Of a stretch of 64,000 bases of DNA, positions 11,776 to 62,679 are shown piece after piece. This DNA is from a virus. The stretch spans positions 62,001 to 126,000 of the IMG/VR virus record IMGVR_UViG_3300013116_000108. One strand, 5' to 3'. Both the position numbers and the translations under genes were made by a program. The stretch's first letter is position 1. Every line of letters starts with the position of its first letter. The notes under the pieces are model-generated. The model searched no databases. It was not told the origin of the DNA and saw only the letters and a program-made list of their open reading frames with translations.

Positions 11776-12577
11776 GCATCTCTTCATTTAGAAATCGCCA
11801 GCAGTCTTGGTTCATATAATCTAGGCGGTTGTTATCAACTAAATATTTTCTCATTGCTTTAAGATTATTTTCTGCCCAATCAATATAACGGGTTTTATCT
11901 CTAAATTTTAAATCATCTACACTTATCCTAGAATTAGGATATTTTTGGTTATAGTAATTCCTAAAAATGTTTCTTTCTGGGTGCCAAGTTAGTTCTGGAG
12001 ATTCTGTATACCATTCATGTGATATTTCAGCAATATCCTTAGGACAGTTACGGTCTTTGAAAAACATACATACAGACCAATGTATTGTCCAATACGGATT
12101 ATCATAATCTAACCATTTCCAAACTGGCTCTCTAAAAACATTATAATCGTAATGTGTTGGAAACCATTTAGCATTTTCAACAAATACAGTATTAATAGTT
12201 TCGTATTCCCCTTCACCCGGTTGCTCTCTAATAACTTTATCTACATCAGGATTTCCAGTTTCTTGTTTCCATTTATGTTTGGGATCTTGTTCCTTAAGGA
12301 AACGTTTAATTTCCATTTCATTTTTAAAATTAACCCTACATTCTTCAGTCCACTCACCTGCCCTGCTAGGAAGTCGCTGTGCTTCTTCAAATAGTATAGG
12401 ATGTCCAGGAAAAGAGTTATGCGACGAATATCTATTTCTATTAGGAGCCATTTTAGAAAATGAAAAGTCTTGTGATAAATCTTGGGAATTTAAAACGGCT
12501 GTTATGTATTCTCCACCTGCTCCAGGGGGATATACTAACACTCTTTGATGATCTTTAAACCAATCTCTAGGAGTCAC
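11768..12577 (-). CDS. Sulfotransferase-like or P-loop protein of unknown function
   Basis: A 269-aa protein if started at GTG 12577, which has AAGGA 8 nt upstream and overlaps the ferredoxin stop by 11 nt; an ATG-started longer frame (12640) would overlap by 74 nt. An N-terminal [17 protein letters not shown] resembles the 5'-phosphosulfate-binding loop of sulfotransferases and other P-loop folds. The rest is rich in Trp/Tyr/Asn ([16 protein letters not shown]). Two other P-loop proteins with similar flavour lie at 40099 and 41057. Reaction unknown; sulfotransferase is the best guess. Confidence 0.45.
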
Positions 12578-12917
12578 CGGGTTCTTCCTTAAAGAACTCC
12601 ATTTTGCCATTTGGGTAATTTTTAGGATCGAATTTTTCATGCTCAGGCATTGGGTCTCCGTTCTCAGTTATTACTGGCCATCCATGTTCGTTAGCATACT
12701 TCCAATTAAAATCTACCCATTTAGCACCATGTTCTGTAGTATCAGAGTGTATCGCATCAACTGGACATTCTGGTTCACATACTCCACAATCAATACATTC
12801 ATCTGGATTAATAACCAGTGTGTTTATTCCTTCATAAAAACAATCAACTGGGCATACCTCCACACAGTCTTTATGTTTACAATTAATACATCCGTCATCT
12901 ACTATATAGGTACTCAT
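12567..12917 (-). CDS. fdxA: FdxA-like ferredoxin with two iron-sulfur clusters
   Basis: A 116-aa ferredoxin. Cys 10, 13, 18 and 22 ([14 protein letters not shown]) and Cys 41, 44, 47 and 51 ([12 protein letters not shown]) form two cluster motifs of the bacterial 7Fe/8Fe FdxA type; the length and the C-terminal tail also match FdxA. It acts as a cytoplasmic one-electron carrier. Its ATG overlaps the stop of the radical SAM gene, with an AGGAAA ribosome site. Radical SAM enzymes need such reductants, so it probably feeds electrons to the neighbour, though it could serve other host or phage oxidoreductases. Confidence 0.9.
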
Positions 12918-13942
12918 ATTATTTCCTTATTCATACAATTTTCACATATTTGTGATTCTTTATTTTTCCAAACATTGTTTAAATGTTTAGTAAAAAACTT
13001 GTGAGATAAAATCTCTATTAAACTAAATTTATTAATATTATTAAAATCCTGTGGGAATTTTTTTCTAATAGACAGCATTGACCATTCGTTGTCATAAAAC
13101 GCATTATTGGCATTATCTGAAATGAAACAACACGGCCATATCCTGCCTTTAACATCGACTTGTAATGCCAAGTCTTTTAGCCAAGGACAATTAAATTCAT
13201 GTTCAATACTTTTATCTGCCCAAAAATGAACTCCTTCTTTATCAGGATAAAAATCTTCTTGAAGTGATTGTAACTCTTTATAAACTTCATTACTAGGTGC
13301 GGTAATAACTACTTCAGGCATACCTTTATATTCTTTAGCAAATATTTCTTTATCGTAACTTTCACTTATTGTAAAATACCTAAATCCTAAACTACGAGCA
13401 AACTCTTTTGCTTTTTGTACTTGATGTTTATTATGGTCAAATATAATCATACGCCAATGTGCTGTGCCGCCATACGATATAAATTCTTTAGCATTACTTA
13501 TTATCTTTTTAAAGTCAGTTCCTCGCCTATGAATGTAATTAGTATCCTCTAATCCATCAATTGAAAAAACAACTTCGTGCTTTTTAAATTTTTGTAAAAC
13601 AGTTGCTAACTCTCGCCAGTGTTCTAAACTTCTTAACCCCCCGTTAGTATGTATAGAAACCATATCAGTAATATTACCAGTGCTGGCTACTTTGTCAAGC
13701 ATATTAACAATATTAGGATTCATCATAGGGTCACCAAAATTTCCATTTAATGTTAATGCTGATATACTACTATCTTCAAATAACTTTGTCCATGTTTCCA
13801 TACTCATATGCTCTAAGCCAATATGAGGATTAACTTCTCCACCATCAATATTCCTAGAACATCCTGGACAAAACGAATTACAATAAGTTGTCGTTTCTAC
13901 CTGTAAATGTTTAATTACGTTGATGTAAGTTGTACTTGACAT
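12914..13942 (-). CDS. Radical SAM enzyme with SPASM-like C-terminus, paralogue of 5459-6547
   Basis: A 342-aa protein with CNSFCPGC (Cys 21, 25, 28), the CX3CX2C radical SAM motif, then [13 protein letters not shown] and [17 protein letters not shown]-terminal Cys ([23 protein letters not shown]) suggest auxiliary clusters. The middle, [20 protein letters not shown], matches the same segment in the first radical SAM protein, so the two are paralogues. The coupled ferredoxin gene is the likely electron donor. The substrate is unknown. The start at 13942 lies inside a small membrane-protein gene (13911-14066). Confidence 0.85.
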
Positions 13943-14611: not shown

Positions 14612-15175
14612 TTATTCCTCTTCTAATAAGTTAATGTGTAATGCTACTAAATGAGCATAAGCCACCGCATGGGCTTTCTTAAAATAATAACTGCCATCAG
14701 CAGGCTTATCCCATACAGTTTCCGCGATTGTTTTCCAGTCGTATTTTCTAAGGTTTGCTTTGCCTGGTCTCATTACTGCTAAAAACATAGCCATCCTTGT
14801 CATGCTATCTGGTTTTAGTTGCTGTAATAAATCAAAATGATTATTAACGTGAATTACTTTTTCACAAAATTCTTTACTTGTCCACAAACGTTGCCAATTA
14901 GGTTCTTTAGCAAGTAATGTATTCATATGTTCTTCGTTTTTAATACCTTGGTATACGTTTACATTTAAAAAGTCTACTTTAAAATATCCTCGTCCTTCCG
15001 CTGTTTCGTGATCAATACTTGCTTGTCCAGTCATAGGATCAACTGGAATGTCTACAAAATAAGCACCTGTGTTGTGCTTCTTACCGCTGTCTAGTGTAGC
15101 AGGTATGTGTTTTAACTTGCTTAATATATCTTCTCTATTAGCAAAGTCTATATCAATGTCAGGTAATTTTACCAT
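14612..15175 (-). CDS. Miniature DnaE (PolIII alpha) palm-like protein
   Basis: A 187-aa protein that keeps, in order, motifs of the C-family polymerase alpha subunit: PDIDIDF at 5-11 (two catalytic Asp), HNTGAYFVDIPVDP at 34-47 (like the HAAGVVI...P region), FKVDFLNV at 65-72 (third catalytic Asp, DnaE 'KFDFLGL'), AVMRPGK at 133-139 ('ALYRPG') and KKAHAVAYAHL at 166-176 ('KSHAAAY'). DnaE is over 1,000 aa, so fingers, PHP and OB domains are missing. It is intact and closely packed with neighbours, so it is a maintained gene, not a remnant of a frameshift. Activity unknown. Confidence 0.7.
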   Translation of the reverse strand: MVKLPDIDIDFANREDILSKLKHIPATLDSGKKHNTGAYFVDIPVDPMTGQASIDHETAEGRGYFKVDFLNVNVYQGIKNEEHMNTLLAKEPNWQRLWTSKEFCEKVIHVNNHFDLLQQLKPDSMTRMAMFLAVMRPGKANLRKYDWKTIAETVWDKPADGSYYFKKAHAVAYAHLVALHINLLEEE

Positions 15176-15912
15176 TAAAACCCTACCTCTTTTAATGTTT
15201 CTTTTACAACTTTAGACTCTCTGTTAAACTTTATAAAATATTGTCTCCAATAGTCTGGATCAATGTATTCGTAAACTAGTTGTATTTGTTCTTCGTTTAG
15301 TTTACCTAAAAATTCTTTACCTGTGTCTGTATTAAAAATCACCCAACAACTAATACGACCATTAATGATATCTTGTACAATTTTATTTGAATTGTTAGCA
15401 AAGAAATAACTACTGCTTTGTATGTTGTCCCCACAACTTTCTGCCCACTTGTCCATAGTAACCAAACTTCTAGTTAAAGCATCTTCCCAATGCTCTGTTT
15501 TAAGGTAACCTGATAACCAGTCTAAGTAATATTGCTCTGTACACCAACGATCTAATTTAAACTTACTGTTAATAACATATTCAATATATCGTTTTGTGTT
15601 TACGACCTTATAGTCAATTAAAAACTTACCAAACTTTACAAAGGCATTATAATAATTGCTCTTAACAAAATCAGCATATTTAAGTTTGTTTGAGTTTGGC
15701 TGTGTTTGTTTAAAGAAAATAATGTATGCTTGTTGCCCTAGCCTAACGTGTGGTTCGTCTTTCTGTTCCCAACGTCTTTTAGATTCGCACATATGAGCCA
15801 GCAATGTAGTTTCTTTTACAAAGCCTCTATCACAATATTTACACATGTGTTTCTTTGGTGCTTTGTAAGTGGTTGCGGCTGTTTTTATTATATCTGCCAT
15901 TGCTAAATTCAC
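15175..15912 (-). CDS. Zinc-finger protein beside mini-DnaE
   Basis: A 245-aa protein with a zinc-finger-like N-terminus (HMCKYCDRGFVKETTLLAHMC), then a mainly helical, aromatic-rich body. It ends one base into the mini-DnaE gene. Two starts are possible: GTG 15912, overlapping the upstream stop as GTGA and preceded by GAGG, or ATG 15900. Zinc fingers of this type bind DNA or protein, so a recognition subunit for the neighbour is conceivable. I recall similar proteins in marine myoviruses, without assigned function. Confidence 0.55.
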   Translation of the reverse strand: MNLAMADIIKTAATTYKAPKKHMCKYCDRGFVKETTLLAHMCESKRRWEQKDEPHVRLGQQAYIIFFKQTQPNSNKLKYADFVKSNYYNAFVKFGKFLIDYKVVNTKRYIEYVINSKFKLDRWCTEQYYLDWLSGYLKTEHWEDALTRSLVTMDKWAESCGDNIQSSSYFFANNSNKIVQDIINGRISCWVIFNTDTGKEFLGKLNEEQIQLVYEYIDPDYWRQYFIKFNRESKVVKETLKEVGF

Positions 15913-16385
15913 TTAACCTCTGCCTTTATATCTTTATCATCCCAACCTAACAATTTTAATTGCTCTTTAAGTTCTTTCTTAGTCACAATAGATGCTAATA
16001 GTTGAACCTCATCTTCTTTCATATTAGGATATAATTTCCTAATAGTTTTATCCAATCCACTAGTGCTAGACTTTGCTTTTTTCTTGTGAGGTATCCATTC
16101 GTGAAACTGTGTTCCCATTTTTGGACTAACAGTAGTTAATAACAACCAATGTAACTTAGGATGTTTTGAACTGTTTATATCAAAAAAGTTTTTGTTAGTA
16201 CGTTCATTAGTTGCTCTTAAATACCATTGCTGTAAAAGTTCCTCACCTTTAACACTTGAACTATATCTGTTATACAAAAAAGGCGAGAATGCTTTCTTTT
16301 CTTCATCAGAAAGATTATCCCAAAATTTCCTATCTTTGCGATCAAGTGCCGGTAACACTTTGTTCAATGGTAAACTCATCCCCAT
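15909..16385 (-). CDS. Possible clamp-loader small subunit (gp62-like)
   Basis: A 158-aa helical protein. AFSPFLYNRYSSS, followed some 35 residues later by KLHWLLLTTVSPKMG and a Trp (EWIPHKKK), recalls the pattern of T4-like gp62 subunits (FxxNRxLS ... YDYLLxxIRKxKR...W). The C-terminal SGLDKTIRKLYPNMKEDE...LLGWDDKDI looks like a small helical domain. It lies in the replication block between the zinc-finger gene and UvsW. No gp44-type ATPase is adjacent, so this call is tentative. Confidence 0.35.
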   Translation of the reverse strand: MGMSLPLNKVLPALDRKDRKFWDNLSDEEKKAFSPFLYNRYSSSVKGEELLQQWYLRATNERTNKNFFDINSSKHPKLHWLLLTTVSPKMGTQFHEWIPHKKKAKSSTSGLDKTIRKLYPNMKEDEVQLLASIVTKKELKEQLKLLGWDDKDIKAEVK

Positions 16386-16882
16386 GCTTTGCCTACATCT
16401 ACAACTTCATTATTTCTTGTTACTTCTTTTACAAAGTAAGCACACTTAGGTTTAGGACCATCATGTAACGGTACTGCTAATAATTGTCCTGCTTTTAGTT
16501 TTGGAAAAAACCATCTTACTTCTTGATACACGTCTACAATTTCTACTGGGTAAAAGTCAGGTTTAAAATCAGACAACTGATTAAATACAAACGCCTTAAA
16601 ACCCCTATCATTAATACTTGTTAAACTTAATACTTCTAAGTCTCCGTGATCTTCTTCTCCAATAAGCATACACCAATCTAGTGGCATCTTAATTTGGTGT
16701 CCTCCAATTTTTAATACTAGTGCTGGACTATTGAAACTTTCTAAAAATATTAGCGGTATAAAAAAATAATCCGGATCTTCTGGATCTGAATTATCTAATA
16801 CACCAAACCTCATATCTTCTACTTCGTCTGGTACTTCTGTCATTGGAAAACATTTATTATCTAATGTTAATATTTGACTCAT
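16376..16882 (-). CDS. Conserved hypothetical of marine T4-like phages, 168 aa
   Basis: A 168-aa beta-rich protein. I recall close relatives in many cyanophages, all unnamed; segments such as PLDWCMLIGEEDHG, FYPVEIVDVYQEV and GPKPKCAYFVKE look strongly conserved. No catalytic motif is visible. It has an AAGGA ribosome site and a near-consensus sigma70 promoter upstream inside the end of uvsW, so it is probably expressed early or in the middle period and starts the operon that runs into the replication genes. Confidence 0.6.
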   Translation of the reverse strand: MSQILTLDNKCFPMTEVPDEVEDMRFGVLDNSDPEDPDYFFIPLIFLESFNSPALVLKIGGHQIKMPLDWCMLIGEEDHGDLEVLSLTSINDRGFKAFVFNQLSDFKPDFYPVEIVDVYQEVRWFFPKLKAGQLLAVPLHDGPKPKCAYFVKEVTRNNEVVDVGKAWG

Positions 16883-16906: not shown

Positions 16907-16935
16907 AGTATAGCATTATTTTGCCTCCCAGTCAA
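16907..16935 (-). promoter_or_regulatory. sigma70 promoter inside uvsW 3' end
   Basis: On the minus strand TTGACT (16935-16930), 17 nt, then TATACT (16912-16907). It overlaps the last codons of uvsW and drives the 168-aa gene and those after it. A second TATAAT-like stretch lies just downstream. Confidence 0.65.
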
Positions 16936-18382
16936 CTTTTTCTACCTGGAACGGATAGTTTGCTTCTTTGTAAAATTTCTTTCTTGATGTTAAGTGTCTT
17001 TTGGCAAATTTACAAGTGCTAGTAATATCCCATATTTGTACAAAATCCTTATCCTCTGCTTTACGAATACCTCGTCCAATACTTTGTATTACCCTAACAA
17101 AACTCTTACCTGGTTCTAATAATACTAAATTGAAAATACGAGGAATATTAATACCTACTGCCGCTACTCCATATGTTGCTACTATAATCTTACCATCCAC
17201 ATCAGCAATTTCATCATACTCTGTTTTCCTATCAGCACTCTTAGTAGCACCTGAAACAAATACAGCCTTATCACCCAATAGTTCTACTAACTCATTTCCA
17301 GCACTAATCCTATCTACTAGTATAAGTGTATTACCGGACTCTGATATTTTATTAAATAATCTTGACATATACTTTAACCTATCAGCATTAGTTAATAGAT
17401 ATTTAAGTTCTTGCTGATAGTTGCCGTGGTCACCATAGTCTTGTAATTGTACAACATTAACATGACACTTTGCTAATACACCTTGGGCTTGTAGTTCGCT
17501 GGCTTGTATTCTTGCTGTTACATCACCTAAACTAACATGTAAACTTTTCCATTCAAAGTTTTCTTTAGGTATTGTTCCTGTTAATCCCCAACGTATAGGT
17601 ATATGTGCCATTACACCTGTTAATAAAGTTTTTAGCACATCTGCCTTAGCCATATGTACCTCATCTACCATAATACAAACTACATCTTCTAAAAACTCGC
17701 CAATACTTATAGGTGCTTCAGCATTTTTTGTTTTCTTTAGTAATATGTTTAAACTTTGCCATGTACAAATAGTATGTGTTTTACCAAACTCTTTTCTATC
17801 ACCAAAAAACACACCAACATCAAGACCCATATTAATATAATCTTCTTCTGTTTGTGTTACTAGTGACTTATTAGGAACAATTACAATACTTCTACCATAA
17901 GGTTCTACCTTATTACTTAATACAGCCGTTATCAAAGTCTTACCAGCACCTGTGGCAATTTCTTGTATACTTTGTGGGTTCTCTAAAAACTTATTAATTG
18001 TATCTACTTGATAATCTCTTAATACAATAGGTTCACCTGCTACTACATGTCCTTTTGGCCAAGTAAGATGGCTATACGATTCTTCTGTAACTCTATCAAA
18101 ATTAAAGTTAGTTTTATAATCACGTTGATCGTTTAACTCAATGTCATAATTAAGTTCTTCAAGTACCGGGATAATTTCTGGTAACAGATTTGTGTAAGTA
18201 GATCCGCCTAACTGAAAGAATGCTACTTTGCCATCCCACCTTCCTAATCTTACAGCAGGAAGATATCTAGCATAAGGAACTTCATACTTAAACTTATTAG
18301 ACAGTTTTTTACGAGCATGAAGATCTAAACCCTCAATTTTAATATTAACTTCATCTTTAATATGTAGTATACATTTACTCAT
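16916..18382 (-). CDS. uvsW: UvsW-type superfamily 2 helicase
   Basis: A 488-aa helicase close to the T4 UvsW length. Residues 121-150 contain LRDYQ (Q-type motif) and ATGAGKT at 143-149 (Walker A); VDEVHMAK is the DExH box, GLTGTIPKE motif III, and QSIGRGIRK motif VI. The N-terminal 90 residues match the UvsW DNA-binding region (FQLGGSTYTNLLPEI). UvsW unwinds branched DNA and R-loops and helps the switch from origin-dependent to recombination-dependent replication. Its ATG overlaps the stop of the 403-aa gene by one base. Confidence 0.93.
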   Translation of the reverse strand: MSKCILHIKDEVNIKIEGLDLHARKKLSNKFKYEVPYARYLPAVRLGRWDGKVAFFQLGGSTYTNLLPEIIPVLEELNYDIELNDQRDYKTNFNFDRVTEESYSHLTWPKGHVVAGEPIVLRDYQVDTINKFLENPQSIQEIATGAGKTLITAVLSNKVEPYGRSIVIVPNKSLVTQTEEDYINMGLDVGVFFGDRKEFGKTHTICTWQSLNILLKKTKNAEAPISIGEFLEDVVCIMVDEVHMAKADVLKTLLTGVMAHIPIRWGLTGTIPKENFEWKSLHVSLGDVTARIQASELQAQGVLAKCHVNVVQLQDYGDHGNYQQELKYLLTNADRLKYMSRLFNKISESGNTLILVDRISAGNELVELLGDKAVFVSGATKSADRKTEYDEIADVDGKIIVATYGVAAVGINIPRIFNLVLLEPGKSFVRVIQSIGRGIRKAEDKDFVQIWDITSTCKFAKRHLTSRKKFYKEANYPFQVEKVDWEAK

Positions 18383-61917: not shown

Positions 61918-62679
61918 TTATCCTATAACAAAACTTAGCGGTAAACTACCTTCAACGTAATTTAATAAATCTTGTTCTAGTTTTTCAAGTTCGGCCATTG
62001 CTTCTTGTTTTAATTGATCACCGTTCATTGTAGTTCCGCCTTGTGGACCAGCAATAGTGGCAAATTTACTTCTTGCTTCTCCTAGCATATACTTACATTG
62101 TGCTTTTGTGTAATCGTATATCCAAGGTTTAGTTCTGTGATCTTTTAAAAGTGTTACATCTGGCTTATGGTTGTATAACCAAAGAAGTACACTTTCGCCT
62201 GTAGAATTTACTTTTCTAACTATTGTTAGTTTTTTACTTACAGGGTTAAATGTAAAATTAATATGTCCACCAAACATTCTAGCAGTTAATTCTTGATATT
62301 GAGTAAACAATTCGTATGTTGCTAGGCCGCCTACTCGTCCTGCCTGCATTAAGTAAACATTAACATAGCCTGCTTCGAATGGCTCAAAACTATTAGCACC
62401 ATCTCCGTCGCTAGATCCTATTGTTCTACGAAATACTTGTCTTACTTCTGTAACTTGGCTAGGTAACGTGTACTCTTGTGTATCTGCTACTAGTTCTAAA
62501 AAGCCGTAACTTTCTTCAACGCTATTCGAACTACGTTGTCTGTATACATCTGCCGCCTTGTTAAAAGCAATATCATAATGTTGTGGATCTAACTCCACAT
62601 CTACCATGCCATCACCTAAACTATATCGCACATAATCAAAGCATTTTTGCTTTTCAGTTTGGAGTTCTGTGTTTGCCAT
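61918..62679 (-). CDS. 13: Neck protein gp13
   Basis: A 253-aa gp13-type neck protein. QKCFDYVRYSLGDGMVDVEL, FLELVADTQEYTLPSQVTEV, EVRQVFRRTIG and YDYTKAQCKYMLGEARSKF are its family blocks; T4 gp13 is 309 aa. It completes the head and forms the tail attachment site with gp14. gp14 is not next to it here, because the TonB cassette follows. GTAGGAAC is the ribosome site; TAAATAC box upstream. Confidence 0.8.
   Translation of the reverse strand: MANTELQTEKQKCFDYVRYSLGDGMVDVELDPQHYDIAFNKAADVYRQRSSNSVEESYGFLELVADTQEYTLPSQVTEVRQVFRRTIGSSDGDGANSFEPFEAGYVNVYLMQAGRVGGLATYELFTQYQELTARMFGGHINFTFNPVSKKLTIVRKVNSTGESVLLWLYNHKPDVTLLKDHRTKPWIYDYTKAQCKYMLGEARSKFATIAGPQGGTTMNGDQLKQEAMAELEKLEQDLLNYVEGSLPLSFVIG

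Follow-up and report, generated by a model that had tools for sequence, protein, structure and literature searches.

Can a gene product of 187 residues hold the catalytic core of a bacterial replicase? The question is raised by an open reading frame (ORF) on the minus strand, running from 15175 to 14612, of a 64,000-nucleotide stretch of viral DNA (positions 62,001 to 126,000 of IMG/VR record IMGVR_UViG_3300013116_000108), which in its entirety is referred to here as the window. The original prediction for this locus, made from the sequence alone, described the product as a complete miniature of the DnaE palm, and noted that known C-family polymerases are several-fold larger. Our analysis points to another answer, to which we assign a probability of about 0.72: the gene would encode one subunit, the C-terminal one, of a minimal C-family nucleotidyltransferase made in two pieces, whose halves form one active site. 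The family of the window ORF ("mini") is designated the C-half, and a separate, small, GRGS-bearing gene of its relatives is designated the N-half.

The plus strand has no open frame across 14612-15175, with stops throughout. Five landmarks (PDIDIDF, GKKHNTG, KVDFL, MRPGK and FKKAHAVAYA) follow one another in the C-half as they do in DnaE, and the claim that they occur in order with all three catalytic Asp is borne out by this arrangement and by the invariance of the Asp in relatives. The DxD and third Asp of a pol-beta-like palm are both present. Profile alignment combined with motif anchors equates D6, D8, D10, H34, G37, K66, D68, R136, P137 and H169 with DnaE D401, D403, D405, H511, G514, K553, D555, R639, P640 and H760, respectively. 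All ten are invariant in an alignment of 16 diverse minis, and the distant phage relatives that make up this alignment, found by tblastn, share identical invariant residues. D6, D8, D10, K66, D68 and L70 are invariant both there and in 60 marine members, with the caveat that the marine set was collected with peptide patterns, one of which included the DIDID motif. K139 is a residue specific to the mini family. Of the 24 columns mapped to DnaE-invariant positions, 12 are conserved (at least 95%) in the C-half, compared with 7 of the remaining 102 columns (Fisher P 3e-6, with a small DnaE reference set of 4 sequences); the equivalent test for the N-half gave P 0.03.

Searches for similar minis returned hundreds of relatives. 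Relatives lacking the catalytic Asp would have spoken against the prediction; D6, D8 and D68 are invariant in the aligned members. The phrog_11778 family, named 'DNA polymerase', matches the C-half over its full length (E 3e-55). A tblastn search detected the C-half in 63 phage records, mainly T4-like jumbo phages (RaK2, PBECO4, PA5oct, Atu_ph07), and a second query recovered the same phage groups; among the first 600 candidate stretches of viral contigs, 597 were confirmed as relatives. A Pfam search of the C-half protein gave no match, nor did a PDB sequence search with the single protein as query, for which family profiles were required. The ratio of nonsynonymous to synonymous substitution (dN/dS) is 0.09-0.13 (0.09-0.12 against the four nearest relatives), and a value of about 0.1 indicates strong purifying selection on the C-half. 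A cellular origin was considered and set aside: a scan of cellular genome contigs yielded 12 contigs of metagenome-assembled genomes and zero isolate genomes, best read as mis-binned phage. One Neomarinimicrobiota metagenome-assembled genome holds two C-half-encoding contigs of 335 kb (PBPT01000016.1) and 153 kb (PBPT01000082.1), very likely mis-binned jumbo phage.

The AlphaFold2 model of the C-half, built on the family alignment, has a mean predicted local distance difference test (pLDDT) score of 93.2. Structural comparison matched it to PolC 968-1293 (Z 9.7, root-mean-square deviation 4.1, 184 residues), to Taq DnaE 458-835 (Z 9.4) and, over residues 1-187, to E. coli DnaE 397-778 (Z 9.0), thus recovering the palm-related C-family fold that had been expected. 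Whole-chain matches were to C-family polymerases only, the next being an unrelated fold at Z 3.9; Foldseek scores were weak, and its top 14 matches were all DnaE or PolC. Because of the phrog_11778 match, the 63 phage records, the 597 of 600 relatives, the confident model (pLDDT 93) and a full-length structural match confined to the C family, the C-half is a DnaE relative, far beyond chance likeness.

Its 187 residues cover a DnaE stretch of approximately 380. On the modelled mapping, the thumb and much of the fingers are deleted relative to DnaE: the DnaE invariants left without a mapped column are concentrated at 430-506 and 657-715 (between I430 and R506 and between G657 and K715), and a full thumb and fingers, with YQEQVM and LRRAMGKK, are lacking. 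The mapped range begins at 397, which leaves no residues for a PHP domain, a domain described as universal in C-family polymerases (PMC12926913). The GRGS loop (DnaE 362-364) and the first palm helices likewise lie outside the chain. The description of the gene as a complete palm was therefore wrong, as it lacks the preceding, GRGS-bearing half of the palm, and a stand-alone complete palm was rejected, the GRGS half being a separate gene in relatives.

The N-half and its occurrence with the C-half

In all eight fully tested phage records, a search with Pfam DNA_pol3_alpha located another small ORF at a separate genomic site. The C-terminal ~35 residues of this N-half resemble GVGRGSSVASYVLFLIGVHKVDSLKYNLDIKEFLK, profile alignment places it on E. 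coli DnaE 321-392, and GRGS is invariant across 73 aligned members. Residues 79-178 of its AlphaFold2 model (pLDDT 93.2) match DnaE 278-393 with Z 9.5 in E. coli DnaE and up to 12.0 in another DnaE. The N-half ends at about 393 and the C-half starts at 397; the two therefore tile the DnaE core with no overlap and with a break of about 4 residues (393/397) just before the catalytic strand, and the sequence profiles concur.

No fused halves were seen among 89 N-half and 90 C-half ORFs, and no locus, at a reach of up to +/-6 kb, showed both genes. Matches of both kinds were obtained at L058 alone, which contains a single-chain DnaE core instead, and fusion or adjacency of the halves was accordingly rejected. 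In 69 of 88 loci the N-half is located 0.7-4.1 kb upstream of the clamp loader gene gp44 and has the same orientation. Reading by eye also revealed a GroES-like ORF just downstream of the N-half on the minus strand of two loci (L104:747-1079 and L103:755-1081), which in L104 stands between the N-half and gp44.

With the RaK2 N-half as tblastn query, the N-half was found in 60 phage records, the same phages as the 63 with a C-half, and both halves are together in at least 61 of the 63. The remaining three are Slicko01, which has an N-half by profile, Slickus01, with an identical C-half, and PP728206, a 109-kb record. Among metagenomic contigs of at least 228 kb with an N-half, seven of eight have a C-half too. 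The B-family polymerase (gp43) accompanies the split pair in 8 of 8 phage records. Of 12 related contigs, 9 have it, and the remaining three are fragments of 111-120 kb. The Slicko01 genome, of 141 kb, carries the pair, which is therefore not confined to jumbo phages. In Slicko01 (L092, L099; 3529-5033) the B-family polymerase matches fall in two ORFs of 578 and 322 residues, and gp43 looks split too. A DnaQ-type proofreader was considered as a fixed partner and dropped, being present in only 5 of 9 records and not found in the window's record.

Gene neighbourhood

The one-base overlap with a zinc-finger gene noted in the original prediction is real (TAATG at 15175), and the link between the two is well supported, with the zinc-finger gene upstream of the C-half in 78 of the 79 loci with enough sequence (median offset -3 nt). 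Coordinates of these and of the neighbouring genes are collected in the table.

Table. Features of the C-half gene and its surroundings (window coordinates).
Feature	Position	Strand	Evidence and remarks
C-half gene (C-terminal half of split minimal Pol III alpha)	14612..15175	minus	187 aa, ATG start at 15175
PDIDIDF, residues 5-11	15143..15163	minus	catalytic Asp 1 and 2, D6 and D8 (E. coli D401, D403), plus D10 (D405)
HNTG, residues 34-37	15065..15076	minus	DnaE H511..G514 by hhalign mapping; H34 and G37 invariant in both alignments
KVDFL, residues 66-70	14966..14980	minus	third catalytic Asp D68 (D555) and K66 (K553) by hhalign mapping
RPGK, residues 136-139	14759..14770	minus	R136, P137 = DnaE R639, P640; R136, P137, K139 invariant in both alignments
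FKKAH, residues 165-169	14669..14683	minus	DnaE FNKSH; H169 = H760; F165 and H169 invariant in both alignments
Zinc-finger partner gene, phrog_11058	15175..15912	minus	E 9e-55; stop overlaps C-half start (TAATG)
CCHC zinc site of partner (C24, C27, H40, C42)	15787..15843	minus	97% conservation at every ligand (alignment of 86 members)
phrog_11758 neighbour, possible gp62 analogue	15909..16385	minus	function-less family label; 83/90 loci, same strand
phrog_11279 neighbour	16376..16882	minus	no assigned function; 67/90 loci
UvsW-type DNA helicase	16916..18382	minus	phrog_16 DNA helicase, E 1e-75; 57/90 loci

A stretch of phrog_11758 is loosely similar to T4 gp62; hhalign was not significant, and the identification was not retained. 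The RaK2 annotation places uvsW at the equivalent position, upstream of the C-half. Many loci are truncated; in roughly half, a primase and a DnaB-type helicase follow the C-half within 3-5 kb. In 80 of 90 loci the next gene after the C-half is a conserved, oppositely oriented ORF of ~120 residues (e.g. L082:12569-12967); the window has a phosphoribosyltransferase gene there instead, as found in 4 of the 90 loci only. Further downstream of the replication genes, the window contains a ferredoxin-like ORF adjoining a radical SAM gene (12567-13942).

Proposed mechanism and alternative readings

In the two-piece enzyme, the C-half would provide the three metal-binding Asp and a trimmed template- and nucleotide-binding region, and the N-half, encoded elsewhere next to gp44, would provide the initial part of the palm, including the phosphate-binding GRGS loop. 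Association of the two across the break at DnaE 393/397 would create one two-metal active site. A further member of the complex is probably the zinc-finger protein, which is translated from the gene immediately upstream and would grip DNA in place of the missing thumb. Such an assembly would most likely carry out short DNA synthesis alongside the B-family polymerase, for example in primer extension, gap filling or recombination repair, and low processivity would be expected of it because there is no thumb, clamp motif or PHP domain. The earlier idea of a compact nucleotidyltransferase thus stands as far as its DnaE-related core is concerned; that the C-half chain alone is a stand-alone enzyme is unlikely, because the other half of the active site, with GRGS, is a separate gene in relatives. 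A more specific proposal, that the N-half, C-half and CCHC protein constitute the smallest known C-family DNA polymerase with a dedicated job, such as lagging-strand primer extension beside a B-family replicase, is put forward tentatively and is rather doubtful.

Several results weigh against the two-piece enzyme. The N-half was not found in the window's own 204-kb record, either by profile search with all filters off or by genome search, and gp43, gp44 and gp45 were not found in that record. The record is probably a fragment, and an N-half could lie beyond it: in related contigs (G003, G005, G007 and G008) the N-half lies downstream of the C-half at a distance of 39-119 kb, compared with only ~76 kb of downstream sequence here. 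One 359-kb contig (G002) combines an N-half and a B-family polymerase with no detectable C-half. The DnaE invariants R390, R396, R709, K714 and K715 fall in lost or altered parts. Finally, no report of split-enzyme activity was found in the literature searched.

The pol-beta-like fold serves many transfer reactions, and deletion of the DnaE thumb and of a large part of the fingers would suit an active heterodimer that acts without a template or on a substrate other than DNA (terminal transfer, or RNA or protein nucleotidylation). We consider this unlikely, since both halves adjoin DNA replication and recombination genes and the fingers motifs RP(G) and FKKxH are retained. The original prediction had alternatively suggested a decoy of the host alpha subunit that captures its partners; as such a decoy or inhibitor of the host replicase, the mini would perform no catalysis. 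The C-half is a piece of DnaE that has lost most of the domains, and there are known examples of small phage proteins jamming the host replisome. Nevertheless, phages whose hosts range from Agrobacterium to Klebsiella invariably keep all three catalytic Asp as well as the GRGS loop in the N-half, none of which a decoy would need. Moreover, the mapped ranges 278-393 and 397-778 exclude the partner sites of E. coli DnaE, namely the epsilon-binding PHP domain, the clamp motif (near position 920) and the tau-binding C-terminus. Because the catalytic residues are invariant across a variety of hosts and neither half includes the partner-binding parts, the decoy is not supported and appears highly improbable. 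Least probable is a structural or regulatory replisome subunit that has kept the fold and lost the chemistry, for although DnaE fingers residues R709 and K714/K715 are absent and gp43 is available for bulk synthesis, the metal ligands D6, D8, D10 and D68 are invariant and dN/dS is near 0.1.

Comparison with known systems

The C-half shares with DnaE and PolC the fold, the motif order and the invariant catalytic residues. It differs in having 187 residues compared with 1160 in E. coli, in lacking the PHP domain, thumb, full fingers, clamp motif, OB domain and tau-binding domain, and in belonging to a palm divided between two chains. PHP-less single-chain phage DnaE cores (572 residues in contig G016, LR756508, and 569 residues in Pseudomonas phage PA5) are likewise reduced C-family polymerases; unlike the split halves, they hold their own RGS loop, a DMYRR segment and all Asp in one chain. 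The 572-residue core is closer to ordinary DnaE (E 1e-42, Listeria phage record) than to the split halves. It is encoded at L197:1414-3132 in contig G016, and a single-chain core is also found at L058:10833-12206; both contigs carry a split C-half as well, and no N-half was seen in G016 apart from the single-chain core. LR756508 (484 kb) encodes a 40% identical relative. As for phrog_11778, the full-length family match, its 'DNA polymerase' name rests on homology rather than on a functional test.

The closest precedent is the split minimal Pol III alpha of Iyer et al. (2021, PMC7824862), who inferred the same split enzyme independently. That article describes a phage-specific enzyme of group 2.2 jumbo phages, encoded as two distant proteins. 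It proposes a reconstituted catalytic enzyme, possibly cooperating with the B-family polymerase in the synthesis of one strand or in repair, and suggests that the split form is ancestral. The genome papers of CBB and Atu_ph07 reported a truncated or small alpha subunit, and Atu_ph07 is also named by Iyer et al., which places the present relatives in the same phage group. The window differs in that its 204-kb record has no observed N-half, and the pair also extends to a 141-kb phage. The zinc-finger pairing found here is not mentioned in the passages of that article consulted.

If the two-chain enzyme is active, bacterial-type polymerase chemistry would need only ~360 residues, without PHP, thumb or clamp-binding parts, and B- and C-family polymerases would run side by side, with a division of labour that two small proteins would make testable. 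Five years after the proposal, no experimental follow-up was found in the literature searched, and the near-invariant zinc-finger neighbour offers a concrete third candidate for reconstitution. The split enzyme is a kind already known from 2021, and the window gene is an additional case, to which the present analysis adds residue-level tiling with two confident models, a conservation test, a co-occurrence count, the zinc-finger pairing, the link to gp44 and the 141-kb phage.
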